Source: Flavobacterium commune
GTDB taxonomy: Bacteria; Bacteroidota; Bacteroidia; Flavobacteriales; Flavobacteriaceae
DNA: 64,000 bases
Reading direction: 5' to 3'
NCBI RefSeq assembly: GCF_001857965.1
Contig: NZ_CP017774.1
Span: 2,356,001 to 2,420,000, forward strand
Shown here: in pieces, positions 386-34,992 of the stretch
Layout of the letters: each line of letters opens with the position of its first letter
Position numbering within the stretch: the stretch's first letter is position 1
Made by a program: the position numbers and the translations under genes
The notes under the pieces: generated by a model
What the model saw: the letters and a program-made list of their open reading frames with translations, nothing else
The model's database searches: none
Told to the model about the DNA's origin: nothing

Positions 386-1198
386 TTAAACTCCGCTAAA
401 AGCACTAAATCCACCATCTACAGGAAGTACTATTCCGGTGATGAATTGAGATGCCTCGCTGCATAAAAAGTGAATTGCTCCTGCTAGTTCATTGGCTTCT
501 CCAAATCTCTTCATTGGTGTGTTGTTAATAATGCTGTTTCCTCTTGGAGAATAGCTTCCGTCTTCATTGGTTAGCAGTTTTCGGTTTTGGTTTCCAATAA
601 AAAATCCCGGAGCAATTGCATTTACCCGAATTTTATCACTGAACTTTGTAGCCATTTCTACTGCCATCCATCGGGTAAAGTTTTCCATCGCAGCCTTAGA
701 TGCCGAATAACCTACCACACGGGTTACGGCTCTTTCAACAGTCATTGATGAGAAATTAATGATAACTCCTTCTTTTTGTTTCGCCATCAGTTCACCAAAA
801 ATTATCGAAGGAAGTACAGTACCATTTAAGTTTAAATCGGTCACAGTTTGAAAAGCATCCATCGATAAATCAAAAATTGTTTGGTCTTCACTGATGGTTG
901 CTCCCGGCATATTTCCTCCGGCGGCATTCAATAAAACATCCACTTTCCCGTAATAGTTTACGATTTTTTCTCTGGCTTCCTCTAATGATTTTTTGTTGAG
1001 AATATCGGCAGCAATTCCTAAGGCATCATAGCCATTTTTTGTAAGTGTGCTGATGCTATTGTCTATTGTTTCCTGATTTCTGCCTATGATGACAATTTTT
1101 GCGCCTGAAGCGGCTAAATGCCCGGCAATAGAGCTGCCTAAAACACCGGTTCCTCCGGTAATTACGGCAACTTTGTTTTTAATGTTAAATAAATTCAT
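386..1198 (-). CDS. SDR family oxidoreductase, probable D-fructuronate reductase (D-mannonate oxidoreductase)
   Basis: A 270-residue classical short-chain dehydrogenase. It has the Rossmann motif TGGTGVLG (from about residue 14), NAAGG near residue 91, and the catalytic Ser about 151, Tyr164 and Lys168 (YSASK). The NAAGGNMPGAT stretch and the length resemble the SDR-type D-mannonate oxidoreductases of Bacillus and Bacteroidetes that interconvert D-fructuronate and D-mannonate. It is the last gene of the minus-strand operon that starts with myo-inositol oxygenase. MIOX makes D-glucuronate, UxaC (encoded at 38680) would isomerise it to fructuronate, and this enzyme would reduce that to mannonate on the way to KDG. 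Family assignment is certain; the substrate is inferred from motif similarity and context. KduD-like or inositol dehydrogenase activity are alternatives. Confidence 0.72.
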   Translation of the reverse strand: MNLFNIKNKVAVITGGTGVLGSSIAGHLAASGAKIVIIGRNQETIDNSISTLTKNGYDALGIAADILNKKSLEEAREKIVNYYGKVDVLLNAAGGNMPGATISEDQTIFDLSMDAFQTVTDLNLNGTVLPSIIFGELMAKQKEGVIINFSSMTVERAVTRVVGYSASKAAMENFTRWMAVEMATKFSDKIRVNAIAPGFFIGNQNRKLLTNEDGSYSPRGNSIINNTPMKRFGEANELAGAIHFLCSEASQFITGIVLPVDGGFSAFSGV

Positions 1199-1236
1199 TT
1201 TTTAATTTTAAGGTTTTTGTTTTGTTCTTTTAGTAC

Positions 1237-1299: not shown

Positions 1300-3228
1300 T
1301 TAATATTTCCACCTAACAAAGGCTTCCATTGCAGCATAATTGGATAAGCCCAATTGGTCATACAATTCAGCGGTTTCTTTGTTACGGTCTTCGGCTCTTT
1401 GCCAAAATTCTCTGGCATCTGTGCCTTGGAATACCACACCGTCTTTTTGAGATTGATGTTTGAATATTCCGTGTCTTTTAGCTAAAACCTGATCCGGACT
1501 CATAGGTACTGCCATTTCTATTTCGTCAATGCCCCATTCCTGCCAGGCACCGCGATACAGCCACAACCAGCAGTCGTTTATAAAATCTTTTGATTTTAGG
1601 TTTTTTACTGCATCGAGAATGGCATCCAAACATACTTTGTGCGTTCCGTGCGGATCGGCAAGGTCTCCTGCTGCAAATATTTGGTGTGGTTTTATTTTTT
1701 CAATAAGATCCATTGTCAATTGAATGTCAGCCTTACCTAAAGGTTTCTTTTCGATAGTTCCGGTTTCATAAAAAGGAAGATCCATAAAGTGAATTTGATC
1801 GTCAGTCAGTCCCACAAAATGGCTGGTTGCACGGGCTTCTCCTTTTCTAATAAGCCCTTTTATGTGCCTTACTTCGGGCGTGTCTATTTGGCTTGTTTTT
1901 TTGTTGTTTAAAAATTCCTGAGCTTTCTCGTAAATTGCGTTGGCTTCAGGACTTTTAATATCAAATTTTTCGTTGTAATCACATACAAATCGCGCAAACC
2001 TTTCGGCTTCACTATCAGCTACAGCAATATTTCCTGAAGTTTGATAAGCTACATGAACTTCATGCCCCTGTTCCTGTAAACGCATAAAAGTACCTCCCAT
2101 ACTAATAATATCATCATCAGGATGCGGACTAAAAATCAACACTCTTTTTCTGGCTGGTGCGGCGCGTTCTGGTCTGTTGGAATCATCGGCATTGGGTTTT
2201 CCACCCGGCCACCCGGTAATAGTGTGTTGTAGTTTGTTAAAAATATTGATGTTGATGTTGTAAGCCGGACCTAGATCGGCCAATAAATCGCTCATTCCGT
2301 TTTCTATATAATCGGCATCGGTAAGTCGCAAGATTGGCTTTTTAAGCTCCAATGCCATTCCCAGAACAGCTTTTCGGGTTAATTTGTCTGTCCATATAAT
2401 TTTTTCAACCAGCCAGGGCTTGTTGATTCTGGTTAGCTTTGAAGCAGCTTCCTGATCTAGTACAAAAATAGCATTATTGTGTTCCTGTAAGAAAGAAGCA
2501 GGGACAAGATTGGTAACAGTTCCTTCGGCAGATGCTTTGACGATGTTTGATTTTCCTTCACCCCAAGCCAGTAGAATAACTCTTTTGGCTTCCATTATTT
2601 TTTTTACGCCTAAAGTAATGGCTGTTCTGGGCGTGTTATTTAATCCGGAGAAATCTTTACTCGCCGCTACTCTTGTAATATGATCCAGAGCAACTAATCT
2701 CGTTTTCGAGTTTTGTAAAGAGCCTGATTCGTTAAAACCAATGTGTCCGTTACCACCGATACCCAAAATTTGCAAGTCGATTCCGCCAAGTGCTTCTATT
2801 TTTTCTTCGTATTGAGCGCAGTAATCCTGAATTTGTTCTTTTGATAAAGTACCGTCAGGAATATTGTAATTTTCGGGTAAAATATCTACCTGATCCAATA
2901 GTAATTCTTTCATAAATCGCACGTAGCTATTGATAGAATCTGGTTCCATTGGATAATATTCGTCCAGGTTGAAAGTGATAACATTTTTAAAACTAAGACC
3001 TTCCTCTTTGTGCATACGCACTAATTCGGCATACAAACCTTTTGGAGAAGATCCGGTTGCTAGTCCCAGAACACAGGATTCCTGCAGTTCCTGTTTGGAT
3101 CGGATTAATGCCGCAATCTCATGAGCGACAGCTATTGAGGCAGTTTTTGAATTTTCGAAAACAACAGTATTGATATTTTCGAAACGTTTTTCAAATCCTG
3201 TAGCTTTGTCAATATTGCTTTTTATCAT
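1300..3228 (-). CDS. nagB: Glucosamine-6-phosphate deaminase (NagB) fused to a PIG-L/LmbE deacetylase-like domain
   Basis: A 642-residue two-domain protein. Residues about 20-300 are a NagB/GlcN6P isomerase domain (LATGSSPKGLY, FNLDEYY, GHIGFNESGS with His162 and Glu167), which converts glucosamine-6-P to fructose-6-P and ammonia. Residues about 360-600 are a PIG-L/LmbE-type zinc deacetylase domain with the metal motif SPHPDDDIISMGG (His369, Asp371, Asp372) and a later His in DPHGTHKVC. The fused form is known in Bacteroidetes. Residue 160 is Asn where E. coli NagB has the ring-opening Asp141, and the fourth residue of the zinc motif is Asp instead of the usual Glu. PIG-L is the family of GlcNAc-phosphatidylinositol deacetylase, which is notable beside an inositol-degrading gene. 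The gene lies in the MIOX operon, 40 nt after the symporter. A role in catabolism of amino sugar released by the neighbouring locus is inferred. Confidence 0.85.
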   Translation of the reverse strand: MIKSNIDKATGFEKRFENINTVVFENSKTASIAVAHEIAALIRSKQELQESCVLGLATGSSPKGLYAELVRMHKEEGLSFKNVITFNLDEYYPMEPDSINSYVRFMKELLLDQVDILPENYNIPDGTLSKEQIQDYCAQYEEKIEALGGIDLQILGIGGNGHIGFNESGSLQNSKTRLVALDHITRVAASKDFSGLNNTPRTAITLGVKKIMEAKRVILLAWGEGKSNIVKASAEGTVTNLVPASFLQEHNNAIFVLDQEAASKLTRINKPWLVEKIIWTDKLTRKAVLGMALELKKPILRLTDADYIENGMSDLLADLGPAYNININIFNKLQHTITGWPGGKPNADDSNRPERAAPARKRVLIFSPHPDDDIISMGGTFMRLQEQGHEVHVAYQTSGNIAVADSEAERFARFVCDYNEKFDIKSPEANAIYEKAQEFLNNKKTSQIDTPEVRHIKGLIRKGEARATSHFVGLTDDQIHFMDLPFYETGTIEKKPLGKADIQLTMDLIEKIKPHQIFAAGDLADPHGTHKVCLDAILDAVKNLKSKDFINDCWLWLYRGAWQEWGIDEIEMAVPMSPDQVLAKRHGIFKHQSQKDGVVFQGTDAREFWQRAEDRNKETAELYDQLGLSNYAAMEAFVRWKY

Positions 3229-3268: not shown

Positions 3269-4843
3269 CTAAGATAGTATGATATAAATTAAAATGGTTA
3301 ATGAAACTAAAATAGTTCCTGCCAGGTTCATTCCGGGCCATGATTTTTCATGATTTTTAGAAAGTTCTTCCTCGTATTCTGTATTGGTTGTATTAAATCG
3401 TTTTGAAACGAGTAACATAATAATGAAATTCAGTACAAATTCGATTCCCCATAAGTGCACAAAATGGATGTTGATTTTAAATACAAATGAAGTTAGGATG
3501 TAGAATACAAATCCAAAAAATAATCCCGCTTTTGCACCGGCGGCATTAATTTGCTTAAAAAATAAACCGGCAACTAATATGGATGAAACCGGGATGAAGA
3601 AGATTCCGTTTAATTCCTGTAAAAGAAGATACAATCCGGAAGGTGCATGAGCTACTAATGGTGCTACCGAAATGGCTATTACGGCGAGTATGATAGAGGT
3701 AATTTTTCCATAATAGACCAGCTTTTCTTCGGTGGTATCTTTGTTTAAGCTTTTTTTGTAAATATCCATACAAAAAATAGTACTAGCAGAATTTAAGATG
3801 CTGTTAAAAGTGCTTAGTACGGCTCCTAATATCACTGCGGCAAAAAAACCGTAGAGATAAGTGGGTAAAACTTTTTTAACCAAAAGAGGATAAATCAAAT
3901 CGGGTTTGTCATAATATTGCTCCTGGAAATAATAAAATCCAATTAATCCGGGAACTACAATGATGAGCGGCATTAATAGTTTTAGAATGCCGGTATAGAT
4001 TAAGCCTTTTTGAGCTTCTATTAAATTTTTTGCTCCCAAAGCTCTTTGGATAATGGCTTGATTCATTCCCCAAAAATAAATTTGGTTAATCATCAGTCCT
4101 GTAAAAAGTGTCGAAAAAGGTAAAACAGAATCCTCTTTTCCTATGATGTCAAACTTTTTTGGAGCAAAATTATAAATGGAACTGACTCCTTCAAAAATAT
4201 TTCCTTTTCCAATTTGATACAAGGCAATAATTGTGACTAACAGACCTCCAAGCATTAATCCTATTCCGTTGAGAGAATCGGAAAAAGCGACGGCTTTTAA
4301 CCCTCCAAAAATTGCGTAGGCTGAACCAATAATTCCAATAGCCAGTACTGTATAGACCAGGGATTCTTCTTTGGTTATCGAGAAAACAGTTGCAAAATCA
4401 AAAATACTTTCGATATTAATTGCTCCTGAGTATAAAATGATTGGTAATAAGGTAACCACGTATGAACTAACCAGTAAAACAGCAACGACGGAGCGTACAC
4501 TCGAATCGAATCGTTTTTCCAGAAATTCAGGGATGGTGGTAAGTTCTAGTTTTAGAAAGCGAGGAATGATATAAATGGCGGCTATAACTAAGGCTATTGC
4601 CGAGGTTACTTCCCAGGCAATGACGATAATTCCGTTTTTATAAGCACTCCCATTCATCCCAATTAGATGTTCGGTGGAAATGTTTGTTAACAACATAGAT
4701 CCTGCAATAACAGGTGCTGATAAACTTTTTCCGGCAAAAAAATATCCATTTGACGTGTTTAGATTGTCTTTTCGGAGTTTGTAACTCGTGTAAAAGATAA
4801 CCAGGAGTGTGAATCCAAAAAAGCCTAAATAGGTATATAACAT
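3269..4843 (-). CDS. Sodium:solute symporter (SSS/SLC5), candidate myo-inositol or sugar transporter
   Basis: A 524-residue polytopic inner-membrane protein with about 13-14 hydrophobic segments. The SSS-family N-terminus includes YFFAGKSLSAPVIAGSMLL followed by NISTEHLIGMNGSAYKNG, and a conserved WGMNQAIIQRALGAKN stretch occurs near the middle. Members of this SGLT-like branch import sugars, inositol or sugar acids with sodium. It sits 35 nt downstream of the myo-inositol oxygenase gene and 40 nt upstream of nagB/PIG-L on the same strand, so co-transcription is likely. Neighbourhood makes myo-inositol the first substrate to test; glucuronate or N-acetylglucosamine are alternatives. The family call is secure, the substrate is not. 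Confidence 0.82.
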   Translation of the reverse strand: MLYTYLGFFGFTLLVIFYTSYKLRKDNLNTSNGYFFAGKSLSAPVIAGSMLLTNISTEHLIGMNGSAYKNGIIVIAWEVTSAIALVIAAIYIIPRFLKLELTTIPEFLEKRFDSSVRSVVAVLLVSSYVVTLLPIILYSGAINIESIFDFATVFSITKEESLVYTVLAIGIIGSAYAIFGGLKAVAFSDSLNGIGLMLGGLLVTIIALYQIGKGNIFEGVSSIYNFAPKKFDIIGKEDSVLPFSTLFTGLMINQIYFWGMNQAIIQRALGAKNLIEAQKGLIYTGILKLLMPLIIVVPGLIGFYYFQEQYYDKPDLIYPLLVKKVLPTYLYGFFAAVILGAVLSTFNSILNSASTIFCMDIYKKSLNKDTTEEKLVYYGKITSIILAVIAISVAPLVAHAPSGLYLLLQELNGIFFIPVSSILVAGLFFKQINAAGAKAGLFFGFVFYILTSFVFKINIHFVHLWGIEFVLNFIIMLLVSKRFNTTNTEYEEELSKNHEKSWPGMNLAGTILVSLTILIYIILS

Positions 4844-4878: not shown

Positions 4879-5760
4879 TTAGAATTTTAAAGTTGCAGGC
4901 AAATATTTAGCAACTAATTCTTCGTAATAAGGGCGTAAAGCTTTCGAATCGGGTTTTACAGGTGCTTTAGTGTACAAATCGTAAGGATTGAATTTTTTAA
5001 CCCATTCAAACATTTCAATATCATGCTCGGTCATTAAATGTGTATAAGCATTTTCCCTGTGTTGAGAATAGAATGAATGGTAACGAATCATGTATAAAGC
5101 TGGTTCAGGCAAGTGATCTTTCAGGATTTGGTACAAATATTCATCATGTCCCCAGCTCATTTTTACCTTGTCTAATCCGCAGTTAGGAGAATAAACACCA
5201 TATTTAGTGTTGTATTTTTCATTAGTACTATCCGGATTGGCAGCAAAAAACTCCGGATAAACTATTTTATCTGAGAATTTACATCCTACAGGGAATGTAT
5301 CGCCTACAACAGCCCATTGTGGTTCGCCAAATAAACATAATACTTTTCCAATGTCATGTAAAAATCCTGTTAGTACAAACCAATCCGGGTGACCATCGGC
5401 ACGAATGGCCTCTGATGTTTGCAATAAATGCTGGAATTGATCTAAGTCAATATCAGGGTCGCTATCATCTACTAAAGTATTCAGGAAATCCACGGCTTCC
5501 CATAGTGACATTTCTTTGCGATCAAATTTTAGGAACTCTTTTTCTTTTTCGCATACAAAATCATAGGTTTGATAAGTATGGTTAATTCGGTAAAACTCTC
5601 TTACGGTTTCTACTCTTTCAGAATCCACATAATTGCGGAATTCTTCTTTTTCTTTTTTTTCTAATGAAGGATCAGGATAGCGTTCGATTAAGTTTTCTTC
5701 CCAATCATCAATTTGGTGCATCGGATTATTGAATTTGTCGGTGTTGTTCGCTTTTTCCAT
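4879..5760 (-). CDS. myo-Inositol oxygenase (MIOX)
   Basis: A 293-residue cytosolic di-iron oxygenase that converts myo-inositol and O2 to D-glucuronate. The hallmark stretch [19 protein letters not shown] followed by [10 protein letters not shown] is present. Iron ligands line up with mouse MIOX: His111 (QHLLQTSE), His135 and Asp136 (LHDIGK), His205 (WGHDEYL), His228 (IRYHSFY) and Asp261 (FNPYDLYTK). Length matches eukaryotic MIOX (about 285). It is the first gene of the minus-strand operon, with the symporter 35 nt downstream. It is transcribed divergently from susC and shares a duplicated 25-bp upstream motif with it. MIOX is common in plants and animals and patchy in bacteria. Its presence beside a PI-PLC and GH115 locus suggests that inositol is a product of that locus. 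Function is near certain. Confidence 0.96.
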
Positions 5761-5840
5761 TGGTGTTGTTTTTTATGATGTTTTGCTAAATGTTTTGTCT
5801 TTTTTTTTAAAACCCCAATTATTGAGTTTATTGTGAATTT

Positions 5841-5848
5841 CAAAATTA
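5841..5848 (-). promoter_or_regulatory. Candidate -7 promoter element for the MIOX operon
   Basis: On the minus strand this reads TAATTTTG, a full match to the Bacteroidetes TAnnTTTG element. It lies 19 nt downstream of the 25-bp motif 5868-5892 and gives a leader of roughly 75 nt. No separate TTTG -33 element is evident, which fits an activator-dependent promoter. Confidence 0.55.
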
Positions 5849-5867
5849 CGCAGATAGTGTTTTTCTA

Positions 5868-5892
5868 AAATGGATAAATGGTCCAAAAACAT
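5868..5892 (-). promoter_or_regulatory. 25-bp regulatory motif, copy A (faces MIOX operon)
   Basis: Read on the minus strand it starts ATGTTTTTGG and ends ATTTATCCATTT. It matches copy B (6261-6285) at 22 of 25 positions, all three differences being in the central four bases. Position relative to the -7 element is identical for both copies (19 nt). Candidate binding site for the HTCS encoded at 30961. Confidence 0.72.
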
Positions 5893-6260
5893 GGATGGAT
5901 TTTTCATAGTGTCAATTTTTTATCAATTAAATAATGTTATATGTATTTAATAGGTCTTTTTGTTGTGGTATTGATTTGTGAAAATCAATTGGGAAAAGGT
6001 CTTTTTTAGGTAGAATTTGCTTAGAGAAATTCTAAAAGAACAGTTTAGAGTTAAAAAATAGCTGTTGTTGACTGTTGAAGATGTTAAAAAAGAGCATTCA
6101 AAATTAACTTAAATGGTTTTTGGTGTTTCAAAGATAGAGAGTCGGCTAAAGTCCTGTTTTTTAAGGTTTAGTGTTAGTGATAATACAAAAAAATAACAGT
6201 TTAAAAACGATAAATGTATTTTTTGGTCTCTTTTTTTAAGGGAATTTGATTGAATTTTAT

Positions 6261-6285
6261 ATGTTTTTGACCGATTTATCCATTT
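6261..6285 (+). promoter_or_regulatory. 25-bp regulatory motif, copy B (faces susC)
   Basis: Starts ATGTTTTTGA and ends ATTTATCCATTT on the plus strand. It is the inverted partner of copy A at 5868-5892. It ends 19 nt before TAATTTTA (6305-6312) and 58 nt before the susC ATG. Candidate activator site shared by both divergent operons. Confidence 0.72.
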
Positions 6286-6304
6286 CAAGCTGGAGTCGAA
6301 CTGT

Positions 6305-6312
6305 TAATTTTA
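6305..6312 (+). promoter_or_regulatory. Candidate -7 promoter element for the susC operon
   Basis: TAATTTTA, one base off the TAnnTTTG consensus, lies 31 nt before the susC ATG. It is chosen because its distance from copy B (19 nt) equals that of the MIOX -7 element from copy A. Confidence 0.45.
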
Positions 6313-6343
6313 CCATAATATTATTAACTAATACTAATTAAAA

Positions 6344-11271: not shown

Positions 11272-11433
11272 CAATTTGTTGGTATAATGTAAGATTTCTT
11301 TAGAATGCTATTTTTTGCAACAGCATAATTAATTAAAATTCAAATACTCAAGCATAGAGCTTATTCCTGATGATTGTTGTATTGCCTTTTTAAACGCAAT
11401 ACACCAGCATCAAAAAAACACAAATCAATCAAT

Positions 11434-20594: not shown

Positions 20595-20624
20595 TAATTT
20601 TTATTGATGATTAAAATAATAGTA

Positions 20625-23872: not shown

Positions 23873-23873
23873 A

Positions 23874-25040: not shown

Positions 25041-26129
25041 ATGATTTCAAAAAATAAAATTTTAAGCTTGCTAATAATCTCATTGTTTTTATTGGTTTCT
25101 TTTAAAAAAGAAGAACCTGTAAAAATGAATGAAATTCAGGTTATTGGCAGTCATAATTCATATAAAATTGCTATTGAAGAGCCGCTGTGGAATTATTTGT
25201 TTCAACGGGATTCGGCAGCAGCCAAAGCACTACAATATACTCATATTTCGATTGAAAAGCAATTGGATTTAGGACTTCTAAATTTAGAATATGATGTGTT
25301 GTATGATCCAAAAGGAGGCTATTATTCGAATCCAAAAGGTTTGGAAATTGTAAAATCATTAGGGAAAGTGCCACTGGAATATGACACAGAAAATAAGTTG
25401 GCTCAGCCCGGATTAAAAATGTTTCATGTTCCCGATATCGATTTTAGAAGTCACTATTTGTTATTTAAAGAAGGATTATTCGCTTTAAAAAAATGGTCGG
25501 ATTTGCATCCAAATCACACGCCCATTTTTATTTTGATAAATGCCAAAGATGATAATAATAGAAAATTACGAGAGCCCTTGCCTTTTACAAAATCGGCTTT
25601 AGATAGTATTGATATTGAAATCCGTTCGGTTTTTGAGGATTCGAAATTGATAACTCCTGATTTGGTTCGGGGAAAATTCAATACCTTAGAAGAGGCTATT
25701 TTAAAAAAAGGATGGCCTGATTTGAATGCTGTTAAAGGGAGATTCCTTTTTGTTTTGGATGAAAATGAAACTAAAATTAATCGCTATCTTGAGGGACATC
25801 CGAGTTTAAAAAACAGAGTGTTGTTTGTAAACAGTAAAGAAGGAAATCCTGAAGCGGCTTTTAGAGTCATAAACGACCCGATTAAAAATTTTGATTACAT
25901 CAAAGAATTAGTAGCCAAAGGTTATATCGTTCGCACTCGCGCCGATGACGGTACAACGGAAGCCAGGACGAATGATTATACTAAATTCGAAAAAGCAAAA
26001 GCATCGGGAGCACAGGTCATTTCAACTGATTATTATATGCCATCAACACTTTTTAAATCATCTTACAAAGTGAGTTTTGACAATAACCGTTACGAAAGAA
26101 TTAAAAAAAGAAACCATGTTCAAAAATAA
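25041..26129 (+). CDS. Ca2+-dependent phosphoinositide-specific phospholipase C-like protein
   Basis: 362 residues with an N-terminal hydrophobic export segment (LLIISLFLLVSF). It has the TIM-barrel PLC-like phosphodiesterase layout of the Streptomyces Ca2+-dependent PI-PLC family: QVIGSHNSYKIA (catalytic His38), GLLNLEYDVLYDPKGG (metal-site acids) and GLKMFHVPDIDFRSHY (His129). Such enzymes cleave phosphatidylinositol between glycerol and phosphate, usually through attack of the inositol 2-OH. Its place between HGSNAT and GH115, and MIOX in the divergent operon, point to release of inositol phosphate from a glycosylated inositol lipid. The 3' end overlaps the GH115 signal peptide by 14 nt. 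Activity on ceramide-phosphate-inositol is inference. Confidence 0.88.
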   Translation: MISKNKILSLLIISLFLLVSFKKEEPVKMNEIQVIGSHNSYKIAIEEPLWNYLFQRDSAAAKALQYTHISIEKQLDLGLLNLEYDVLYDPKGGYYSNPKGLEIVKSLGKVPLEYDTENKLAQPGLKMFHVPDIDFRSHYLLFKEGLFALKKWSDLHPNHTPIFILINAKDDNNRKLREPLPFTKSALDSIDIEIRSVFEDSKLITPDLVRGKFNTLEEAILKKGWPDLNAVKGRFLFVLDENETKINRYLEGHPSLKNRVLFVNSKEGNPEAAFRVINDPIKNFDYIKELVAKGYIVRTRADDGTTEARTNDYTKFEKAKASGAQVISTDYYMPSTLFKSSYKVSFDNNRYERIKKRNHVQK

Positions 26130-29079
26130 GTTTACTACCATTTTTCTAGTCTTTATTTTTCTTTTTGCCAACGCAATAAAGGCACAAAATAGCAATTTTA
26201 CGATTGTTTCAGGAAATCAAAAAGCGAGTATTTTAGTTGAAGATAAAGAACCAAAAGTGGTTCATATCGCTTCTAAAATGTTGGCTGATGATGTGTTTTC
26301 TATCAGCAATCAACGATTGGCAATTGCGAAAAATAGTTCAGGAATAGTAATTATGGCAGGAACTATTGGACAAAGTAAATGGATAGATGCTTTGGTTTCG
26401 AAACAAAAAATTACTATTACTGATGTAAAAGGAAAATGGGAAACTTATAAAATTCAAGTAGTCGAAAATCCAACAGCAGCCATTAAAAAAGCATTGGTTA
26501 TTGTAGGTTCTGACCGAAGAGCTACAGCTTATGGTTTGTTAGAAATTTCAAGAATCATAGGCGTTTCTCCTTGGGAATGGTGGGCTGATGTTACGCCAGA
26601 CAAAAAAGACGATCTAGTCTTAAATATTGAAACGAAAACCTATGGTTCGCCATCAGTGAAATACAGAGGAATTTTTCTAAATGATGAAGACTGGGGTTTG
26701 CAGCCCTGGGCAGCTAAAACTTTTGAACCGGAAACGGGAGATATTGGCCCAAAAACCTATGCTAAAGTTTTCGAATTGTTGTTGCGTTTGAGAGCCAATA
26801 CCATTTGGCCAGCGATGCATAAAAGCACCAAAGCTTTTTATTCATTTCCAAAAAACAAACAAGTTGCTGATGATTATGCCATTGTGGTAGGAACTTCGCA
26901 CGCTGAACCGATGTTGAGTAATATTAACGCAGAATGGAATCATAATACAATGGGTGAATATCGTTATGATACCAACTCAGGAGTGATCAAAGATTTTTTC
27001 AGGAAAAGAGCCAAGGAAACAGCTGCTTTCGAAAATATTTATACTGTAGGAATGCGTGGTGAACACGATTCGCCGATGATTGTTGGCGAAGACGATTCGG
27101 ATTCTCAGGTTAAATTATTAGAGCAAGTAATTACCGATCAAAGAGCGATTCTGAAAAAAGCCACAGGAAAAGAACCTAAAACCATTCCGCAAGCATTTAT
27201 TCCTTACAAAGAAGTATTGGATTATTACCAAAAAGGATTGCAATTGCCGGAAGATGTGCAACTGGTTTGGACGGATGATAATTATGGATACATTCGTCAA
27301 TTGAGTAATTTAAAAGAGCAAAAACGTTCTGGTGGCGCGGGGATTTATTACCATACTTCCTATTGGGGACGTCCGCATGATTATTTGTGGTTGAATTCGA
27401 CTAACCCGGTTTTAATGTGGGAAGAAATGGCAAAAGCTTATGAATTTCAATCCCGCGATTTATGGATTTTGAACTGCGGAGATATCAAACCACATGAATA
27501 CAATATCGAATTGTTTTTGGATATGGCTTGGCATATGACTCCTTTTGCTAAAAGCCAAAGTGTAAAAACACACATGCAAAACTGGGCTTCGAGAGAATTT
27601 GGAACTCAAAACGCTACTCAAATTACTGATTTGTTTTTCGAATATTATCGTTTGGCTTTCCAGCGTCGTCCTGAGTTTATGGCCTGGAATCAGGTAGAAC
27701 CGGAAACCAAATCAAAACCAACGGCGCTGACTCAAATCCATTATGGAGATGAGGTTTCGAAAAGGATTGACGAATACCAAAATTTGATGAATACTGCCGA
27801 AAAATTGCAAAAAGAGATTCCAGCAAATCGTCAAAATGCTTTTTACGAATTGGTAACTTATCCTGTTGTTGGCGCAGCGAGTTTAAATCATAAATGGTTG
27901 TATTCGTATAAAAATAAATTTGTAGCCGAACAAGGAAGAGGAAGTGCTGCTTTTTTTGCTTCAAAAGCTGAAGAAGCTTATAAGCGAATTCAGAAAGAAA
28001 CCAACTATTTCAATGACGAATTGGCTAACGGAAAATGGAAACATATTATGAGTATGTCGCCACGTTATTTGCCTGTTTTTGGAGAAACCACAGCAACTAC
28101 TGCGGTTGCAGGAACAAAACCTGAATTGAAACTGGCTCTGGAAAGTTATGAAATGGAAGTCAACCATAAAACGGAGAATTCCTATGCCGATGTTTTGCCT
28201 GTTTTTAACGCTTACATAGACAATCAGTATTATATTGATGTTTTTATGAGAGGCGCTGGCGAAATTTCCTGGCAAGCAAAACCAAAAGCCGATTGGATTA
28301 AAATTTCGCAACAACAAGGCGTTTTGGATAACGATAAAAACAGTCAACAACGCATTTGGGTAAGTATCGACTGGAGTAAAGTTCCAAAAGGAGAAAATAA
28401 AAAAGAAGCCCCATTAGGACACGATTACCAATTGATTCCGCCAAGTTATAAAGTCAATTCGGCAATCGATTTTGTGAGTAAAGACACTTTAATCACTATT
28501 GGGATTTCGGCTTTTAATCCAAAGTTTGAAGCATTAGAAAATTACAAAGGTTTTGTGGAAGACAAAGGATATATCTCGATTGACGCAGCGAATTTTTCGA
28601 ACAAAAAAGAAGGTGCAGCAGCCCAATGGGAAACTTTTGAAGGTATTGGATATGCAGGAAAAGTAAGTGTGGCTTTGCCAAGAACGGCTAATTCTGAAGT
28701 GGATTTAAAAAGCATAAAAGATAATAGTCCGCTTATGGAATATGATTTTTATAGTTTTAATTTTGGTCAAGCCAATGTAAAAGTACAAGCCATTCCAACG
28801 CATGCTTTTTACCAGGGAAAAGGAGTGCGATGTGCTGTAGCTATTGATGATGCTGAGCCTGTGATTTTAGATTTTCAAACTTTTGGAAGAAGTGATGAAT
28901 GGTTACAAAATGTATTGAAAAATGCGGCAGTAAAATCGGCAGCACAAATTATCAATAAGGCAGGAAAACATAAATTGAGAATCTGGATGGTTGATCCCGG
29001 AGTAATGATTGACCGCGTTTTAATTGATTTGGGAGGCTGGAAGGATTCCTATGCTTTTCCAGCAGAAACAAAAATGTAA
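26116..29079 (+). CDS. GH115 alpha-glucuronidase
   Basis: 987 residues when started at ATG 26116, which provides a clean signal peptide (FIFLFANAIKAQ); the frame extends 13 codons upstream inside the PLC gene. GH115 features in order: an N-terminal domain, GSDRRATAYGLLEISRIIGV, VSPWEWWADV, YRGIFLNDEDWGLQPWAA, LRANTIWPAMH, GMRGEHDSPM, VWTDDNYGYIRQL, YYHTSYWGRPHDYLWL, then the C-terminal helical and beta domains. Length is typical (800-1000). GH115 enzymes remove alpha-1,2-linked GlcA or 4-O-methyl-GlcA. No xylanase is nearby. The GlcA-alpha-1,2-inositol bond of plant GIPC is a plausible target, and removing it would free the inositol 2-OH used by PI-PLC chemistry. Family certain; substrate inferred. 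Confidence 0.93.
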   Translation: MFKNKFTTIFLVFIFLFANAIKAQNSNFTIVSGNQKASILVEDKEPKVVHIASKMLADDVFSISNQRLAIAKNSSGIVIMAGTIGQSKWIDALVSKQKITITDVKGKWETYKIQVVENPTAAIKKALVIVGSDRRATAYGLLEISRIIGVSPWEWWADVTPDKKDDLVLNIETKTYGSPSVKYRGIFLNDEDWGLQPWAAKTFEPETGDIGPKTYAKVFELLLRLRANTIWPAMHKSTKAFYSFPKNKQVADDYAIVVGTSHAEPMLSNINAEWNHNTMGEYRYDTNSGVIKDFFRKRAKETAAFENIYTVGMRGEHDSPMIVGEDDSDSQVKLLEQVITDQRAILKKATGKEPKTIPQAFIPYKEVLDYYQKGLQLPEDVQLVWTDDNYGYIRQLSNLKEQKRSGGAGIYYHTSYWGRPHDYLWLNSTNPVLMWEEMAKAYEFQSRDLWILNCGDIKPHEYNIELFLDMAWHMTPFAKSQSVKTHMQNWASREFGTQNATQITDLFFEYYRLAFQRRPEFMAWNQVEPETKSKPTALTQIHYGDEVSKRIDEYQNLMNTAEKLQKEIPANRQNAFYELVTYPVVGAASLNHKWLYSYKNKFVAEQGRGSAAFFASKAEEAYKRIQKETNYFNDELANGKWKHIMSMSPRYLPVFGETTATTAVAGTKPELKLALESYEMEVNHKTENSYADVLPVFNAYIDNQYYIDVFMRGAGEISWQAKPKADWIKISQQQGVLDNDKNSQQRIWVSIDWSKVPKGENKKEAPLGHDYQLIPPSYKVNSAIDFVSKDTLITIGISAFNPKFEALENYKGFVEDKGYISIDAANFSNKKEGAAAQWETFEGIGYAGKVSVALPRTANSEVDLKSIKDNSPLMEYDFYSFNFGQANVKVQAIPTHAFYQGKGVRCAVAIDDAEPVILDFQTFGRSDEWLQNVLKNAAVKSAAQIINKAGKHKLRIWMVDPGVMIDRVLIDLGGWKDSYAFPAETKM

Positions 29080-29101: not shown

Positions 29102-30937
29102 ATGAACTATTGTAAGAAAGTAATTGTGGGCTTGACTATTGTTTTGACCGTTGTTTCTTGTACTTCGGTCAGGGAATTAACACCTAAAAGCACTCAAGTT
29201 GCATTCTTATCTGATGTTCATTTACTGGATATTTATGGGACATTTTCCGATTCAGATTATAAAGGAGTGCAGAATCCTTATGATGGGAAATATACTTTGG
29301 CGCGAACTATGAAATCCCAATTGCAATCCACCCGATTGTTTAACGAAAATTATTTTGCTTTTATTGCTGCATTGGATGATGTGGCAAAACGAAATATAAA
29401 GACGGTTCTTCTTCCTGGAGATTTTAGTGATGACGGACAACCCATAAACATTCGGGGATTAAAAAAGATTCTGAATGAGTATTCCAATAAATACGGCATT
29501 CATTTTATAATTACCACAGGAAATCACGATGTTGCAAAACCCTTTTTGACCGATTCCGGTAAAACTGATTTTCTGGGCGAAGGAGGAAAAAATCAAGTGA
29601 TAATGAGTAAAGCGGGAATGTACGTTCCTAAAAGTTCTGATGAACTTCCTGCGGTGATTACAAAAGATATCGGGACGATGGGCTATGCCGAAGTTTTACA
29701 AGAACTAGGTGATTTTGGTTTTTTTCCAAAGAAAACCGATTTGTATTGGGAAACTCCTTTTACCTCATACAATCCAGATAATTATACTTTCGAAAAAGCA
29801 TTGGAGCAATCCACAATCGAAAAAAGAACTTATGCTATTCCGCCCTACAATTCGCAAATTCCCGATTTAAGTTATTTGGTAGAAGCCCAAAAAGACGTTT
29901 GGTTTTTAGCCATTGATGGCAATGTGTATGTGCCCAAAGAAGAGGCAAAGGAGCATCCGAAAAATCCATTAAATTACAATAGTGCCAATATTGGTTACAA
30001 CCAAGTTTTAACGCATAAAAAACATTTAATTGCATGGGTGACTAAAGTGGTTCAGGAGGCAAAAAAAAGAGGCAAAACTTTAGTTGCGTTCAGTCATTAT
30101 CCGATGATTGAGTTTAATGATGGTGCTTCAGCTATGATGAAAGCATTATTTGGTGAAGATAAAATGCAGTTGCATAGAGTTCCAAGTGAAGAAGTGGCAC
30201 AAATTTTTGCGGAAGCCGGAGTGCAACTTCATTTTGCGGGACACATGCACATCAATGACACGGGAATCAGAAAATATAAAAATGGAAAGGGATTAGTGAA
30301 TATCCAGATTCCGTCGTTGGCGGCTTATATTCCGGGGTATAAAATCCTGACGATTCAAAGTAAAAATAAGATGCAGATAAGTACAGTTGCTATTGATTCG
30401 GTGCCTGGATTTAAAACGCTTTTTCCTTTGTACGAACAGGAATATGCTTATTTAAAAAGTACTGGAAATCCGGATATTTGGGATAAAGGAATCTTAGAAG
30501 CTAAAAATTATCATGAATTTACGAATTGGCATCTCAAAGAACTCGTTCGAACACGATTTCTAAAAAAGGATTGGCCTGAAGATTTTAAAGATTTCCTGTT
30601 GAAATCGACAGCAAAGGATTTGTATGCTTTTGCTAATATTTCTCATTCAAATCAACAGAAATTTAAAGATAAAAGCTGGACAGGTTTTGATTTGATTTTC
30701 GATTTTTATCGACTGTATTCAGCTGATGAACTGGCGTTAAAAGACATTGGAGAAGAGCGGATTCGTCAATATAAAATTATTATAGATTCATATAGTAATC
30801 ATTATAAAAAAAAGCCGAGACCTACTGTCTTAGAAACTTCGTTTTATGAATTTTGTTCCATTTTTAAAAGTTTTCTAAATGGTGCTCCATCAGATAATTT
30901 TATCATAAATTTGAATAGAAATACTATCCACAATTAA
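29102..30937 (+). CDS. Calcineurin-like metallophosphoesterase, lipoprotein
   Basis: 611 residues with a lipoprotein signal (IVLTVVSCTSVRE, Cys20). Metallophosphatase motifs are complete: AFLSDVHLLD (Asp38, His40), LLPGDFSDDG (Asp107), TTGNHDVAK (Asn141, His142), FSHYPM and HFAGHMHINDTG. The C-terminal 200 residues are helical and unassigned. It is encoded 22 nt after GH115 and 23 nt before the HTCS. Within this locus it could dephosphorylate inositol phosphate before import. Because acid sphingomyelinases belong to the same superfamily, it could also cut the ceramide-phosphate bond directly. Family certain, substrate unknown. Confidence 0.85.
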   Translation: MNYCKKVIVGLTIVLTVVSCTSVRELTPKSTQVAFLSDVHLLDIYGTFSDSDYKGVQNPYDGKYTLARTMKSQLQSTRLFNENYFAFIAALDDVAKRNIKTVLLPGDFSDDGQPINIRGLKKILNEYSNKYGIHFIITTGNHDVAKPFLTDSGKTDFLGEGGKNQVIMSKAGMYVPKSSDELPAVITKDIGTMGYAEVLQELGDFGFFPKKTDLYWETPFTSYNPDNYTFEKALEQSTIEKRTYAIPPYNSQIPDLSYLVEAQKDVWFLAIDGNVYVPKEEAKEHPKNPLNYNSANIGYNQVLTHKKHLIAWVTKVVQEAKKRGKTLVAFSHYPMIEFNDGASAMMKALFGEDKMQLHRVPSEEVAQIFAEAGVQLHFAGHMHINDTGIRKYKNGKGLVNIQIPSLAAYIPGYKILTIQSKNKMQISTVAIDSVPGFKTLFPLYEQEYAYLKSTGNPDIWDKGILEAKNYHEFTNWHLKELVRTRFLKKDWPEDFKDFLLKSTAKDLYAFANISHSNQQKFKDKSWTGFDLIFDFYRLYSADELALKDIGEERIRQYKIIIDSYSNHYKKKPRPTVLETSFYEFCSIFKSFLNGAPSDNFIINLNRNTIHN

Positions 30938-30960: not shown

Positions 30961-33900
30961 ATGAAATCTAAATTGATTATCATTTTAGTTTTTTTTATTT
31001 CATTCTCTACGAGTATTGGGCAGAATATAAAATTCGAACATTATAATGAGAGTAATGGACTTTCGTATAATTCGGTGAGGCATATTGTTCAGGATAAGAA
31101 CGGTTTTATGTGGCTGGGTACTTTTTTTGGACTGAACAGATTTGACGGCTATCAGTTTAAACCTTATATGAGTTCGGAACTGGGTAAGAACAAACTGTAT
31201 AATGATGATATTACCGCTTTAGAACTTGATGAAACTTCTAATAATTTATGGATAGGAACCCGAAAAGGGCTTACCTTGTATAAAATGGATACGCATGTTT
31301 TTAGTACTTTTTTTAATGAAAAAAACAATCCAAATAGCTTGCCTGAAGATGAAATTCGTGCTGTTCATGTAGATAAATTTAAAAGAGTTTGGGTAGGTAC
31401 AATGAGTAAAGGACTCGCTGTTTATTATCCTAAAGAACAACGGTTTTCTAAAATAAATATTAAAGGTTTTGAGTATGTAAAAGAAGTTTTTCAGGATAAA
31501 AAAGGAAATATTTGGGTAGGAAGTTTTGGCAAAGGTTCAGTAGCTAAAATTATACTGGGAGCCAAGGGTGAGATTTTAAAAATAACTACTTATGGTTTGT
31601 CTATCCCTAATTCGAATCAAAAAAATCCTTATATCAATTTCATTTATGAAGATTTTAAATCGGATATTTTTGTTGGTACAAGAGAAGGTCTTTATAAGTT
31701 AAACAAGTCAAAAAACACATTTGAGAATCTTTATATTAAGGATGCGGTTTTAAGAAATAAATTAGGACCTTATTTTATTTCAATTGCCCGTGCTCCCGAC
31801 GGTAAATATTGGCTTGGAACTCTTGGAGGACTTTTGGTTTGTAATCAATTAGAAGATATAGCTACGGGTAATTTTCAAAGGTATTTCTCCAAACTTACCG
31901 ATGATAATTCACTGGTAGGAAACTTAGTGAATTCCTTGTATTTTGATAAATCAGGGGTGCTGTGGATAGGTACAGAGGATGGTTTAGATAAATATGATCC
32001 TTATGGAGATCAGTTTAAAATTAACAAAGATATTTCATTGTATAATGACAATCAAAAACCTAATATCCGTGGTTTTGCTAAAACTTATGACGGCAAAGTG
32101 ATTGTGGCTACAAGATACAATGGGCTTTTTGTTTCCAGAGAAAAGTCATTTGTTCCATTGTTCAATAACAGATATGATATTGCCAGTATTTATTCTAATG
32201 ACGGAAAGCTGTTTTACTGTGGTTTGTGGGATGGTAAAATATTGGTTTATAATTATTTGTCCAATAGTTCCAGATTAGTTGATATTGGGGTGAAAAGTTC
32301 GCCTATAATTTCTTTTTTAGTAGCCGATGACAATACTTTGGTAGTAGGCTCTTTTGGGGAAGGAGCTGTAATTTTAGACGCAAAAACTTTAGAAATTAAA
32401 GTTCCAAAAGGTGTTTTGTTGTCAGATTTTCAGATTAATAAGATAAAAACAGATCGTTTTAAGAATTTATGGTTTGCAACTGAAACTGGGGTTGCAAGAT
32501 ATAATGTAAAGAGCAGAAAACTCAAACTGTATTTGAAGGGTGAGCATGAAAAAATAGGACTGCCTGCCAGTCATGTGAGTGATATTTTAATTGATGTCAA
32601 TGGAGATATTTGGGTGGCAACAGTCAAAGGTATTGGCCTTTATGATGCCAAGAAAGATAATTTTGTTCCTGTTTTAGAGCCTAAAGAACTGCATGGAAAA
32701 TGGATTACCGACTTAGAAATGGATAATGATGGCTATTTGTGGTTAAATATCAACAATAACAGTATTGCCAGATATAAGAAAAAGTCAAAGAAAATAAATA
32801 TTTATTATGTTGATAGCGGTAATAGACTAGATGTTTTTAGTTCTAAAGGATTTTACAGTTTAAATAACTCAACTATTTATTTAGGAGGCAAAAATGGAAT
32901 CATCTATTTTTCGGCTGATAAAATTAAAGAGAATAAAATAGCGCCTTCGCCAATTATAACAGAGTTTAAAGTTCAAAATGAAGAGGTGTTTCCTGGCTTA
33001 GAAATCAATGGTCAGATTCCGTTTTATAAGGATATTAACATCCATAAGGAAGTGGAACTTAATTATGATAATCGCAATTTTTCCATTCAGTTTTCGGCAC
33101 CTTCTTATACTAATGAGCGACTGAATACCTTTGAGTATATGCTGGAAGGTTTTGATAAAAACTGGATTACTACCACTAGCGATGCCAGAACTATTCAATA
33201 TACTAACCTTAATCCTAACGAATATACATTTAAAATAAGAGCTAGTAATAGTGATGGAATTTGGAGTAAAACGGCAGCTTACAAAATTACTATTCTGTCT
33301 CCTTTTTGGACTAATACAAAGATTTTCCTGTTGCTGATTTTAATACTTTCGGTGTCTTCATATTACATCCGAAAAGAAATTAAATCCCGTCTTAAGCTAA
33401 GACAGGCACTTTTGTTAGAGCGTGTAAAACGCGATAGTGACGAGCGTCTATCGAATGAAAAGCTACAGTTTTTTACTAATATTTCACATGAATTAAGGAC
33501 ACCATTAACATTGATTTTAGGCCCGGCCAAGCAATTATTAGAACAAAATGACGGCGTGGATTATGATAAATCCAAAGTTCATTTGATTTATCAAAATGCC
33601 AGTAGATTGTTGTTGCTGGTAAACCAAATTTTAGATTTTAGGAAAGCACAATCCGGAGAATTAAAATTAAAAGTGTCCAAAACAGAAATTGTTGCTAATA
33701 CGCAAACCGTTTTTGATTCCTTTACACAATTGGCACAGGACAAAGAGATTAATTTTAATTTTAACTGCGAACTTGAAAATCTCGAAGCCTGGATTGACGT
33801 AGATAAATACCATAAGATTCTCTACAATTTACTTTCGAATGCGTTGAAATTTACCAATAACTATGGTACAGTGGAATTGTTCATCGGAACAAAAGAAAAA

Positions 33901-34992
33901 GAGGGTGAAACAATATTGGTTGTTGAGGTAAGCGATAATGGAATAGGTATTCCACTGGAAAGCCAGAAAAAGATTTTCTCCAGATTTTATCAGGTTAAAA
34001 CCAGTAAAAAAAATAATACCGGATCGGGTATTGGATTGTCTTTAGTTATTTCATTGGTTGAGGTTCACAGAGGGCAATTGAAATTAAAAAGTGCTCCTTT
34101 GCAGGGAAGTGTTTTTACCTTGGAATTGCCTGTGTCTAAAAGCAGTTATAAAAAATCGGAAGTTTTTGATATTGAATACAAAGAAACCGAAGTGGCTTAT
34201 GAAGCCGCAGATAAAATAAAAAAAGGCAATCAAAGTACAGAGTTGAAACAAACTGTTTTAGTTATTGAAGACAATGCCGAGTTGCGCTTTTTTATAGTCG
34301 AATATTTATCTGAATTTTACAGAGTGTATCAGGCAGAGAATGGTGATGAGGGCTTGAATCTTTGTAGAAAAATTAAACCGGCACTTTGTGTGGTCGATGC
34401 AATGATGCCGGTTATGGGAGGATTTCAGTTTGTTGAGGCCTTAAAGAATGATGACGATATTAGTCATACAGCATTGATTATGCTGACTGCTTTATCAGAA
34501 AACGAAAATAAAATTAAAGGATACAATTTAGGTGTAGATGAGTATATGGTTAAACCATTTGATCCTTCTTTATTAAAAACCCGAATTGATAATATTATTA
34601 GAACCCGTACCGAGTTAAAACAAAAATTCTCCGGCGAAATTGAAAGTGATGTCTCAACATTGACGCATTCACAATTAGATATTGATTTAATTTCGAATAT
34701 TACCGATTTGATTGAGCAAAATATGAGTGATCCCGAATTGACGGCAAACTTCCTTTGTGCTGAATTAGGGATGAGTTCGTCTAAATTGTATCGAAAAATC
34801 AAGCAATTAACCGATTTGTCACCTAATGAGTTTATTAGAACGGTTCGTTTGAAAAAAGCGGCGCAGTTGTTAAAATTAAAAGTGAATAATGTTTCGGAAG
34901 TGGCTGATAAAGTGGGTTTTAATGATCCGCTATATTTTAGCAGGTGTTTTAAAAAACAGTTTGGATATTCGCCAAGCCGATTGATTAAGTAG
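30961..34992 (+). CDS. Hybrid two-component system regulator (HTCS)
   Basis: A 1343-residue inner-membrane one-protein signalling system. It has a signal peptide, two periplasmic seven-bladed propellers made of regulator repeats (for example DKNGFMWLGTFFGLNRFDGY, KSGVLWIGTEDGLDKYDPYG), a Y_Y_Y domain (about residues 690-780) and one transmembrane helix near residue 790. The histidine kinase follows (FTNISHELRTPLTLILGP, His843; SDNGIGIP; GSGIGLSLV), then a receiver domain (VVDAMMPVMGG, Asp1146) and a C-terminal AraC-type HTH (VADKVGFNDPLYFSRCFKKQFG). HTCS proteins bind a specific glycan fragment in the periplasm and activate their own locus. It closes the susC locus and is the natural candidate to bind the 25-bp motifs before susC and MIOX. 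Confidence 0.96.
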   Translation: MKSKLIIILVFFISFSTSIGQNIKFEHYNESNGLSYNSVRHIVQDKNGFMWLGTFFGLNRFDGYQFKPYMSSELGKNKLYNDDITALELDETSNNLWIGTRKGLTLYKMDTHVFSTFFNEKNNPNSLPEDEIRAVHVDKFKRVWVGTMSKGLAVYYPKEQRFSKINIKGFEYVKEVFQDKKGNIWVGSFGKGSVAKIILGAKGEILKITTYGLSIPNSNQKNPYINFIYEDFKSDIFVGTREGLYKLNKSKNTFENLYIKDAVLRNKLGPYFISIARAPDGKYWLGTLGGLLVCNQLEDIATGNFQRYFSKLTDDNSLVGNLVNSLYFDKSGVLWIGTEDGLDKYDPYGDQFKINKDISLYNDNQKPNIRGFAKTYDGKVIVATRYNGLFVSREKSFVPLFNNRYDIASIYSNDGKLFYCGLWDGKILVYNYLSNSSRLVDIGVKSSPIISFLVADDNTLVVGSFGEGAVILDAKTLEIKVPKGVLLSDFQINKIKTDRFKNLWFATETGVARYNVKSRKLKLYLKGEHEKIGLPASHVSDILIDVNGDIWVATVKGIGLYDAKKDNFVPVLEPKELHGKWITDLEMDNDGYLWLNINNNSIARYKKKSKKINIYYVDSGNRLDVFSSKGFYSLNNSTIYLGGKNGIIYFSADKIKENKIAPSPIITEFKVQNEEVFPGLEINGQIPFYKDINIHKEVELNYDNRNFSIQFSAPSYTNERLNTFEYMLEGFDKNWITTTSDARTIQYTNLNPNEYTFKIRASNSDGIWSKTAAYKITILSPFWTNTKIFLLLILILSVSSYYIRKEIKSRLKLRQALLLERVKRDSDERLSNEKLQFFTNISHELRTPLTLILGPAKQLLEQNDGVDYDKSKVHLIYQNASRLLLLVNQILDFRKAQSGELKLKVSKTEIVANTQTVFDSFTQLAQDKEINFNFNCELENLEAWIDVDKYHKILYNLLSNALKFTNNYGTVELFIGTKEKEGETILVVEVSDNGIGIPLESQKKIFSRFYQVKTSKKNNTGSGIGLSLVISLVEVHRGQLKLKSAPLQGSVFTLELPVSKSSYKKSEVFDIEYKETEVAYEAADKIKKGNQSTELKQTVLVIEDNAELRFFIVEYLSEFYRVYQAENGDEGLNLCRKIKPALCVVDAMMPVMGGFQFVEALKNDDDISHTALIMLTALSENENKIKGYNLGVDEYMVKPFDPSLLKTRIDNIIRTRTELKQKFSGEIESDVSTLTHSQLDIDLISNITDLIEQNMSDPELTANFLCAELGMSSSKLYRKIKQLTDLSPNEFIRTVRLKKAAQLLKLKVNNVSEVADKVGFNDPLYFSRCFKKQFGYSPSRLIK

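Follow-up and report, generated by a model that had tools for sequence, protein, structure and literature searches.

Which substrate would call for a SusC/SusD importer, a glucuronidase, an N-acetylglucosaminidase, a phospholipase C and an inositol oxygenase at one locus? The question is raised by a window of 64,000 nucleotides, bases 2356001-2420000 of the 3.85-Mb single-contig genome of Flavobacterium commune, in which positions 386-34992 (window coordinates here and below) form two divergent operons that encode an importer pair (SusC/SusD), a sensor and proteins from families that cleave carbohydrates and phospholipids. We consider it fairly probable that the target is glycosyl inositol phosphorylceramide (GIPC) of plants or algae, whose head group the locus would take apart, feeding inositol and glucuronate into one pathway; that GIPC is the substrate, what each enzyme does and in which order the steps run are all inferred from sequence.

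The best described GIPC core is N-acetylglucosamine (GlcNAc) on glucuronic acid (GlcA) on inositol, GlcNAc(alpha1-4)GlcA(alpha1-2)inositol-1-O-phosphorylceramide, which tobacco makes in GlcNAc and glucosamine (GlcN) forms with arabinose (Ara), galactose (Gal) and mannose (Man) added, and vegetative GIPC of Arabidopsis carries Man on GlcA (PMC8099651; this and the papers below are cited for the excerpts on which we draw). GIPC occurs in plants and algae with up to 19 sugars, including Ara, Gal, Man and fucose (Fuc), and is said to predominate among the sphingolipids of Earth's biomass (PMC12201980). Among the papers listed by a literature search, confined to open-licence papers, none links GIPC to a bacterial utilization locus, which agrees with the preliminary description of this DNA and is no proof of novelty.

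Enzyme families of the locus and the published GIPC core

The encoded families fit GIPC linkage by linkage, as HGSNAT with glycoside hydrolase (GH) family GH89, GH115 and phosphatidylinositol-specific phospholipase C (PI-PLC) map onto the core published in the excerpt of PMC8099651. Families were assigned by Pfam and NCBIfam profile scores, and lipoboxes by a simple pattern. The GH89 alpha-N-acetylglucosaminidase (21638-23872, plus strand) scores 496 bits against PF05089, carries NAGLU domains above their cut-offs and matches human NAGLU (4xwh) at E 2e-171, with the two human glutamates, presumably catalytic, aligned at FNE and (A/T)E. The adjoining HGSNAT/NagX-like membrane glucosamine N-acetyltransferase (23874-25016, plus) has no Pfam match at E 0.001 and falls below the NagX equivalog cut-off (152.5 versus 480 bits); its membership of the wider family is indicated by a match to human HGSNAT from the Protein Data Bank at E 3.8e-21 and by H44, which aligns with the histidine of human KHASW that we take to be the catalytic luminal residue. 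In lysosomes, HGSNAT followed by NAGLU handles GlcN-alpha1,4-uronate.

The Ca2+-dependent-type PI-PLC (25041-26129, plus) is placed in its family by profile score, fold and invariant candidate catalytic and ligand residues, and Ca2+-dependent cleavage is predicted for it. The protein is only 22% identical to the Ca2+-dependent PI-PLCs of Pseudomonas sp. (5fyp) and Streptomyces antibioticus (3h4w) and, unlike them, is set in a glycan locus beside GH115. That GH115 alpha-glucuronidase gene (26077-29079, likely start 26116, plus) scores 451.2 bits against PF15979, whose cut-off is 27, and overlaps the PI-PLC gene by 14 bases if it begins at 26116. A calcineurin-like metallophosphoesterase lipoprotein follows (29102-30937, plus; PF00149, lipobox), a predicted inositol-phosphate phosphatase. 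On the opposite strand, myo-inositol oxygenase (MIOX; 4879-5760, minus), the family that turns inositol into D-glucuronate, scores 369.9 bits against PF05153 over a cut-off of 25 and covers positions 2-249 of the 249-position profile. Beside it lies a Na+/solute symporter (SSS; 3269-4843, minus; PF00474), a predicted inositol importer that adjoins MIOX in many relatives and whose nearest solved relatives belong to the SGLT family. The genome holds a single strong copy of each of MIOX, PI-PLC and GH89, all in this locus, and two further copies of GH115 elsewhere.

Arranged on a GIPC head group, these enzymes would act as follows. Outer Man, Ara or Gal would be trimmed by GH92 and GH43 enzymes, perhaps with GH28; exposed GlcN would be acetylated by the HGSNAT homologue from cytoplasmic acetyl-CoA; the resulting alpha1,4-GlcNAc would be removed by GH89, and the alpha1,2-GlcA would then be released from inositol by GH115. 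The Ca2+-type PI-PLC would cut inositol phosphate from ceramide, the metallophosphoesterase would free the inositol, the SSS carrier would import it, and MIOX would convert it to D-glucuronate, which GH115 is also expected to release. Both glucuronate streams would be finished by UxaC, a mannonate-type reductase, UxuA, 2-keto-3-deoxygluconate (KDG) kinase and 2-keto-3-deoxy-6-phosphogluconate (KDPG) aldolase. Families for the complete route from D-glucuronate are present in the genome, because the neighbouring plus-strand operon at 35438-44946 encodes a major facilitator superfamily transporter, KduI, KduD, UxaC, a PfkB-type (KDG kinase-like) protein, a KDPG-type aldolase, a mannitol-dehydrogenase-type reductase and UxaA, and two copies of UxuA lie elsewhere.

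The place of PI-PLC in this order depends on its chemistry. A Streptomyces relative forms a 1,6-cyclic product through the 6-OH, for which our literature search gave no confirmation. Since O2 of GIPC inositol bears GlcA, a PI-PLC that depends on an unsubstituted 2-OH would need GH115 to act first; if the 6-OH chemistry holds here, the enzyme could act at any stage and would be blocked by the 6-O-GlcN of glycosylphosphatidylinositol (GPI) anchors.

A distinct GH115 clade

The GH115 protein retains the active-site residues of its family, with D331, D203 and R327 aligning with Asp303, Asp177 and Arg299 of wtsAgu115A (7pug; numbering matched by spacing), of which Asp303 is the proposed acid (residue roles from the excerpt of PMC9063842). 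Its best solved match is BtGH115A (5by3; 623 bits), and the two share NDEDWGL with most other non-xylan-type rows of our alignment. Nine xylan-type rows, L117 (L and G labels denote loci and genomes of the comparison set) and the solved xylan enzymes (4c90, 7pug) carry NDEAPxx / MRGDGD. The window protein falls outside that xylan-type group: it has NDEDWGL and MRGEHDSPMIVG and sits in a separate clade. Among the aligned rows a stretch MRG(E/K)HDSPMI is confined to this clade, reading MRGEHDSPMI, or MRGKHDSPMI in L012; for G115 and L017 the search pattern caught another stretch instead of the motif.

A tree of 54 GH115 proteins, built by a quick method with no bootstrap, places 24 from the studied loci on one side of a branch with a support of 100 in the Shimodaira-Hasegawa-like approximate likelihood ratio test (SH-aLRT) and the 30 others opposite. 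The window genome's two other GH115 genes lie outside the clade; a fragment of 23 bits (G002:C31) was excluded, and L014 and L019, the same contig stretches as G044 and G152, were removed from this tree and from that of PI-PLC. PI-PLC adjoins 19 of the 24 clade members, and in these data the clade is seen only in loci of this kind. The window's GH115 clade probably has a new specificity. A xylan role was set aside as the leading reading, since its motifs and clade differ from those of the xylan-type rows.

BtGH115A is reported to be inactive on xylan and active on arabinogalactan, the sole characterized member so described in the excerpt of PMC9063842, and to act on decorated arabinogalactan (PMC9063842, PMC13059095). 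As the GlcA of arabinogalactan is beta-linked (PMC9063842), this assignment does not fit an alpha-glucuronidase family; a glucuronosyl-inositol substrate could resolve the puzzle. Distant GH115 relatives of about 685 residues, with PF15979 scores of 52-73 bits, were also observed (L074:3130-5187, L080:14439-16496, L084:5206-7263 and G211:C15:117380); of nine such genes five are close to PI-PLC or MIOX, and they may replace the clade GH115.

Co-occurrence across genomes

Failure of PI-PLC, GH115 and MIOX to co-occur had been set beforehand as a refutation of the GIPC proposal. We sought the PI-PLC, MIOX, NAGLU (GH89) and GH115 families in the same 299 genomes of the family to which F. commune belongs, excluding weak PF16670 rows (G072, G195, G121 and G127:C20) and MIOX rows below 30 bits. 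The genes do co-occur as neighbours, though not in every genome with PI-PLC. Strong PI-PLC was present in 21 genomes, window-type MIOX in 20 and both in 13 (Fisher p 7e-13; the Fisher and binomial values ignore genome kinship), and in 10 of these 13 the two genes are at most 25 kb apart. The MIOX types were split by score after the hits had been seen: the window type comprises 20 rows at 362-379 bits and a second type 26 rows at 313-327 bits. Because the second type is rarely near the other families (PI-PLC in 1 of 26, GH115 or NAGLU in none of 26), only window-type MIOX tracks these loci, and MIOX in general was rejected as a marker. A second-type MIOX gene near a PI-PLC (G006:C3:86117-86866) is interrupted by two stop codons.

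The 61 full-length GH115 rows in the 299 genomes divide into 12 of the clade and 49 others. All 12 clade genes lie within 30 kb of PI-PLC (7), MIOX (10) or NAGLU (7), as does one of the 49 others (G115, near MIOX); the tree covers 30 of these 49. None of those 30 is within 30 kb of PI-PLC, window-type MIOX or NAGLU, and the 15-kb surroundings of 20 non-clade genes hold no match to PI-PLC, MIOX, GH89 or HGSNAT. Neighbours were labelled by their best BLAST match to window proteins, and for SusC, SusD, the first GH92 and the hybrid two-component system (HTCS), at 20-40%, the label indicates family only. Chance neighbourhood was rejected, since partly the same sets of genes lie side by side in other genomes as well.

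A one-sequence query supplied 15 loci of named relatives, 13 of whose genomes were searched whole. In 10 of the 13 (G540 and G545 repeat G044 and G152) MIOX and PI-PLC share a contig, 13-22 kb apart, and in two (G534, G538) they are on different contigs; L020, a locus without GH115, has its MIOX on another contig, and of the second type. By PI-PLC and GH115 the nearest named relatives are F. undicola, F. glycines (locus L008), F. palustre, F. pokkalii (L010) and F. daejeonense (L009), some of which, we assume, come from plant roots. PI-PLC and GH115 also occur together in one genome of another family: Ancylomarina (L012, Marinifilaceae) keeps the window's gene order for PI-PLC, GH115, phosphoesterase and HTCS. 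A phylum-wide draw found PF16670 in 16 of 247 genomes. A control genome from another phylum, that of Caulobacter vibrioides, has matches to PF16670, GH115 and NAGLU.

A recurring core with varying sugar enzymes

Across sister loci the recurring core consists of PI-PLC, GH115, phosphoesterase, HTCS, MIOX and SSS, not complete in every locus, around which the sugar enzymes vary. Single genes scanned in sister loci include GH125, GH2 of beta-galactosidase type, two GH29, GH3, GH78, a GH51-type C-terminal domain and a sialate-esterase family member; of these, GH125, GH2, GH29 and the GH51-type domain fit the Man, Gal, Fuc and Ara reported on GIPC in the excerpt of PMC12201980. Window-type GH89 (71-91% identity) was seen in 13 of the fetched loci; other GH89 rows fall outside this sample. 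It directly adjoins HGSNAT in 12 of them (the window, G228, G115, G100, G117, G144, G297 and L007-L011), and one gene separates the two in L006. L013 and L015-L018 combine GH115 with PI-PLC, GH92, a GH28-like gene and a 479-residue gene that is GH125 where scanned (L070); where GH92 and GH125 occur and GH89 is absent, a Man-type head group would be a suitable target.

All 23 PI-PLC loci classed as this type hold a gene predicted to act on uronic acid: clade GH115 in 19, a GH115-like gene only in three and the lyase-fold gene described below in one; as the class was partly drawn by uronate-gene neighbours, this count is support and not a test. Where clade GH115 is absent, the locus holds the relative of about 685 residues (G002, G203, G229, G211) or the lyase-fold gene with DUF4861 (L150; G127:C20), and G207 has clade GH115 together with the distant relative.

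A broader proposal, which we hold only tentatively and would not rate at even odds, is that a conserved, modular kind of Bacteroidota locus eats an intact membrane glycosphingolipid: its core would be PI-PLC, a GH115 clade newly specific for GlcA-alpha1,2-inositol, phosphoesterase, sensor, MIOX and inositol carrier, its exchangeable sugar modules would track the local plant or algal GIPC, and the 6-OH chemistry of its PI-PLC would tolerate the 2-O-glucuronate.

Alternative substrates

The main rival is digestion of GPI-anchored arabinogalactan proteins or other GPI anchors, which we regard as unlikely. GH92 and GH89 with HGSNAT would suit the Man-GlcN part, PI-PLC the anchor, and GH115 with GH43 the arabinogalactan, on which the nearest solved GH115 is, as noted, reported to act. 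Yet GPI is not known to carry GlcA, and in GPI the sugar for GH89 would sit on inositol O6 and not on GlcA. The transfer of GlcA to inositol phosphorylceramide (IPC) is stated to be plant-specific in the excerpt of PMC9113257, which argues against fungal lipids and, together with that lack of GlcA, against GPI anchors. The beta linkage of arabinogalactan GlcA (PMC9063842) also tells against this rival, as do the single AbnA-like GH43, the sole arabinogalactan-type candidate in 386-34992, and the pairing of GH115 with PI-PLC in L013 and L015-L018 without further arabinogalactan families.

We think it still less probable that the locus serves a uronate-rich polysaccharide such as xylan, pectin or a gum, with MIOX and PI-PLC nearby for unrelated use of free inositol or phosphatidylinositol. 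The GH28, DUF4861 and lyase-fold genes inside the locus, and KduI/KduD and a pectin locus directly downstream, would favour a polysaccharide; against it stand the repeated co-location of PI-PLC, MIOX, GH115 and GH89-HGSNAT, the possible 14-base overlap of PI-PLC and GH115, the absence of xylan-type motifs from the window GH115, and the separation from these families of all 30 non-clade GH115 genes in the tree and of the 20 whose surroundings were read. Other glycosylated inositol lipids, such as fungal Man- or GlcN-inositol-phosphoceramides, oomycete or protist lipids, or bacterial phosphatidylinositol mannosides, would all fit GH92, GH125, GH89, HGSNAT, PI-PLC and MIOX and several sister loci that show no GH89, but are the least probable of the three, given a gene expected to act on uronic acid in 23 of 23 PI-PLC loci of this type (a class partly so defined) and the plant-specificity stated for GlcA on IPC (excerpt of PMC9113257).

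Several observations weigh against GIPC as the substrate. The linkage-by-linkage scheme of the preliminary description is supported for the core, where HGSNAT with GH89, GH115 and PI-PLC match the structure in the excerpt of PMC8099651, and leaves the GH28, DUF4861 and lyase-like genes unexplained, as they match no reported GIPC sugar linkage in the structures compared; nor does the GH78 (rhamnosidase) of one sister locus. No ceramide-catabolism gene was recognized in the locus, and the uronate genes here also serve pectin, given KduI, KduD and the adjoining pectin locus. By the simple pattern PI-PLC has no lipobox, which leaves its meeting with lipid unexplained. Its tree does not firmly unite the copies of these loci (support 54/90), too weak for PI-PLC to be kept as a clade marker, and other PI-PLCs occur in SusC/SusD loci without glycosidases. 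Eleven of the 21 strong PI-PLCs lie away from both window-type MIOX and GH115; ten of the 20 window-type MIOX genes are not near PI-PLC, three of them near none of PI-PLC, GH115 and NAGLU; and five of the 24 clade GH115 rows (G153, G115, G164, G100, G117) have no PI-PLC nearby, these five being near MIOX or GH89-HGSNAT. Neither GH89 nor HGSNAT appears in the stretches examined from the Algibacter/Hyunsoonleella/Maribacter group of sister loci, and one of 14 further phylum-wide PI-PLC stretches is of this type (L150; G383, at 39 bits, and G411:C268 were left out).

Relation to known systems

The locus belongs among the polysaccharide utilization loci (PULs). Like the Sus-like PULs of Bacteroidota, it has SusC beside SusD, an HTCS, lipoprotein and exported glycosidases, and sugar catabolism next door; unlike them, its predicted target is a membrane glycolipid, and it adds PI-PLC, phosphoesterase, MIOX and a predicted inositol carrier. 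It resembles the lysosomal HGSNAT-then-NAGLU step on heparan sulfate in holding both families side by side for the GlcNAc-alpha1,4-uronate linkage found also in the published GIPC core, and differs in that the predicted next sugar is alpha1,2-GlcA on inositol, to be removed by GH115 and not by a beta-glucuronidase. Its GH115 is like the known alpha-glucuronidases (5by3; 4c90, 7pug) in exceeding the Pfam cut-off and keeping the active-site residues, and unlike them in its own clade and loop motif, its lack of xylan-type motifs and its predicted inositol aglycone. As in inositol catabolism elsewhere, which runs through MIOX or the iol pathway, MIOX makes D-glucuronate from inositol; here, by contrast, it is tied to a locus for import and deglycosylation, in which GH115 is predicted to yield D-glucuronate as well.

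If GIPC is indeed the substrate, the locus would offer a genetic handle on the fate of GIPC carbon and add a new GH115 specificity. Its enzymes could help to read GIPC glycans, whose structures are difficult to analyse, and its genes could mark microbes that live on membrane lipid from plants or algae. The assignment of BtGH115A, from an alpha-glucuronidase family, to a substrate with beta-linked GlcA may also find its explanation here.

Other genes of the locus and its surroundings

Each gene named in the preliminary description is an open frame where it had been placed, and all but the HGSNAT-like gene, for which the human HGSNAT and NagX matches speak, score in the named Pfam family. The description had missed four genes of the plus-strand run and the neighbouring uronate operon. 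Of these four, the first (13761-15554, plus) encodes a 597-residue exported protein with a Tat-like start. No Pfam lyase model, nor any other Pfam family, matched it, and some of its relatives are named Heparinase. Its structure model, of moderate quality (predicted local distance difference test score, pLDDT, 72), gave Foldseek matches, the best at E 6e-10 and with template-modelling (TM) scores of about 0.4-0.5, to chondroitin, other glycosaminoglycan, alginate and heparin lyases, with GH127 chains lower in the list. N183-H184 and Y231, presumably the lyase residues, are invariant in 26 of 26 relatives. Heparinase II/III-type lyases, which join an (alpha/alpha) toroid to a beta-sandwich and carry Asn-His and Tyr, remove a substituent on O4 of a uronate, and the modelled polysaccharide-lyase fold makes the protein a candidate lyase of this kind. 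Because the O4 of GlcA bears GlcNAc in the published GIPC core, the protein could open the 4-substituted GlcA by beta-elimination, which would be a second route beside GH89 and GH115. A 40% relative (L158:10711-12474) stands between SusD and PI-PLC in a genome related at no lower rank than the phylum. The DUF4861 gene (15636-16484, plus; PF16153) pairs with the lyase-fold gene in relatives. The other two missed genes are a GH28-like beta-helix hydrolase (16682-18268, plus; PF00295 69.6 bits), with relatives at 64-94% in most sister loci having one, and the HTCS sensor/regulator (30961-34992, plus), which has Reg_prop, Y_Y_Y, HisKA, HATPase_c, Response_reg and HTH_18 domains.

The plus-strand run comprises 14 genes, from SusC to the end of the HTCS at 34992. 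It opens with SusC, a TonB-dependent outer-membrane importer (6344-9358; PF13715, PF07715, PF00593), and SusD, a glycan-binding lipoprotein (9390-11003; PF07980, PF14322; lipobox). Two members of the GH92 alpha-mannosidase family (11374-13749, likely start 11434, PF07971 530 bits, lipobox; and 18297-20594, PF07971 479.6 bits) and a GH43 predicted arabinosidase (20604-21611; PF04616; lipobox), AbnA-like at 60.6 bits and so under the cut-off of 480, complete it, all on the plus strand. Eleven of its 13 gaps are shorter than 100 bases, those from GH28 to HTCS being at most 28 bases; the two longer gaps are 430 bases (SusD to GH92) and 197 bases (DUF4861 to GH28). A divergent intergenic region of 583 bases (5761-6343) separates this run from the minus-strand operon, which reads MIOX, SSS, a NagB-like and PIG-L-like fusion (1300-3228, minus; PF01182, PF02585; PRK02122 1060 bits), predicted to process amino-sugar phosphate, and a short-chain dehydrogenase/reductase of D-mannonate oxidoreductase type (386-1198, minus; NCBIfam PRK08277 370 bits over a cut-off of 281), predicted to turn fructuronate into mannonate, with gaps of 35, 40 and 101 bases.

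PI-PLC genes of other arrangement were also seen. Frames of about 617 residues occur in some relatives (L074:12867-14720; P0049, P0057), two with an added esterase-type domain in precomputed Pfam annotation. A simpler kind of locus has SusC-SusD adjoining PI-PLC, often with a phosphoesterase and with no glycosidase recognized (L107, L108, L109, L093, L146-L149, L151-L153, L156, L160, L161, L020), and may serve plain phosphatidylinositol. Downstream in the window, the pectin locus (46456-57838) encodes a LacI-type regulator, GH28s, two GH88/105-type genes, GH43, a fused pectate lyase-pectinesterase and a GDSL esterase, and a weak, short transposase remnant (MULE/mutator type; 45368-46111) lies between it and the uronate operon.

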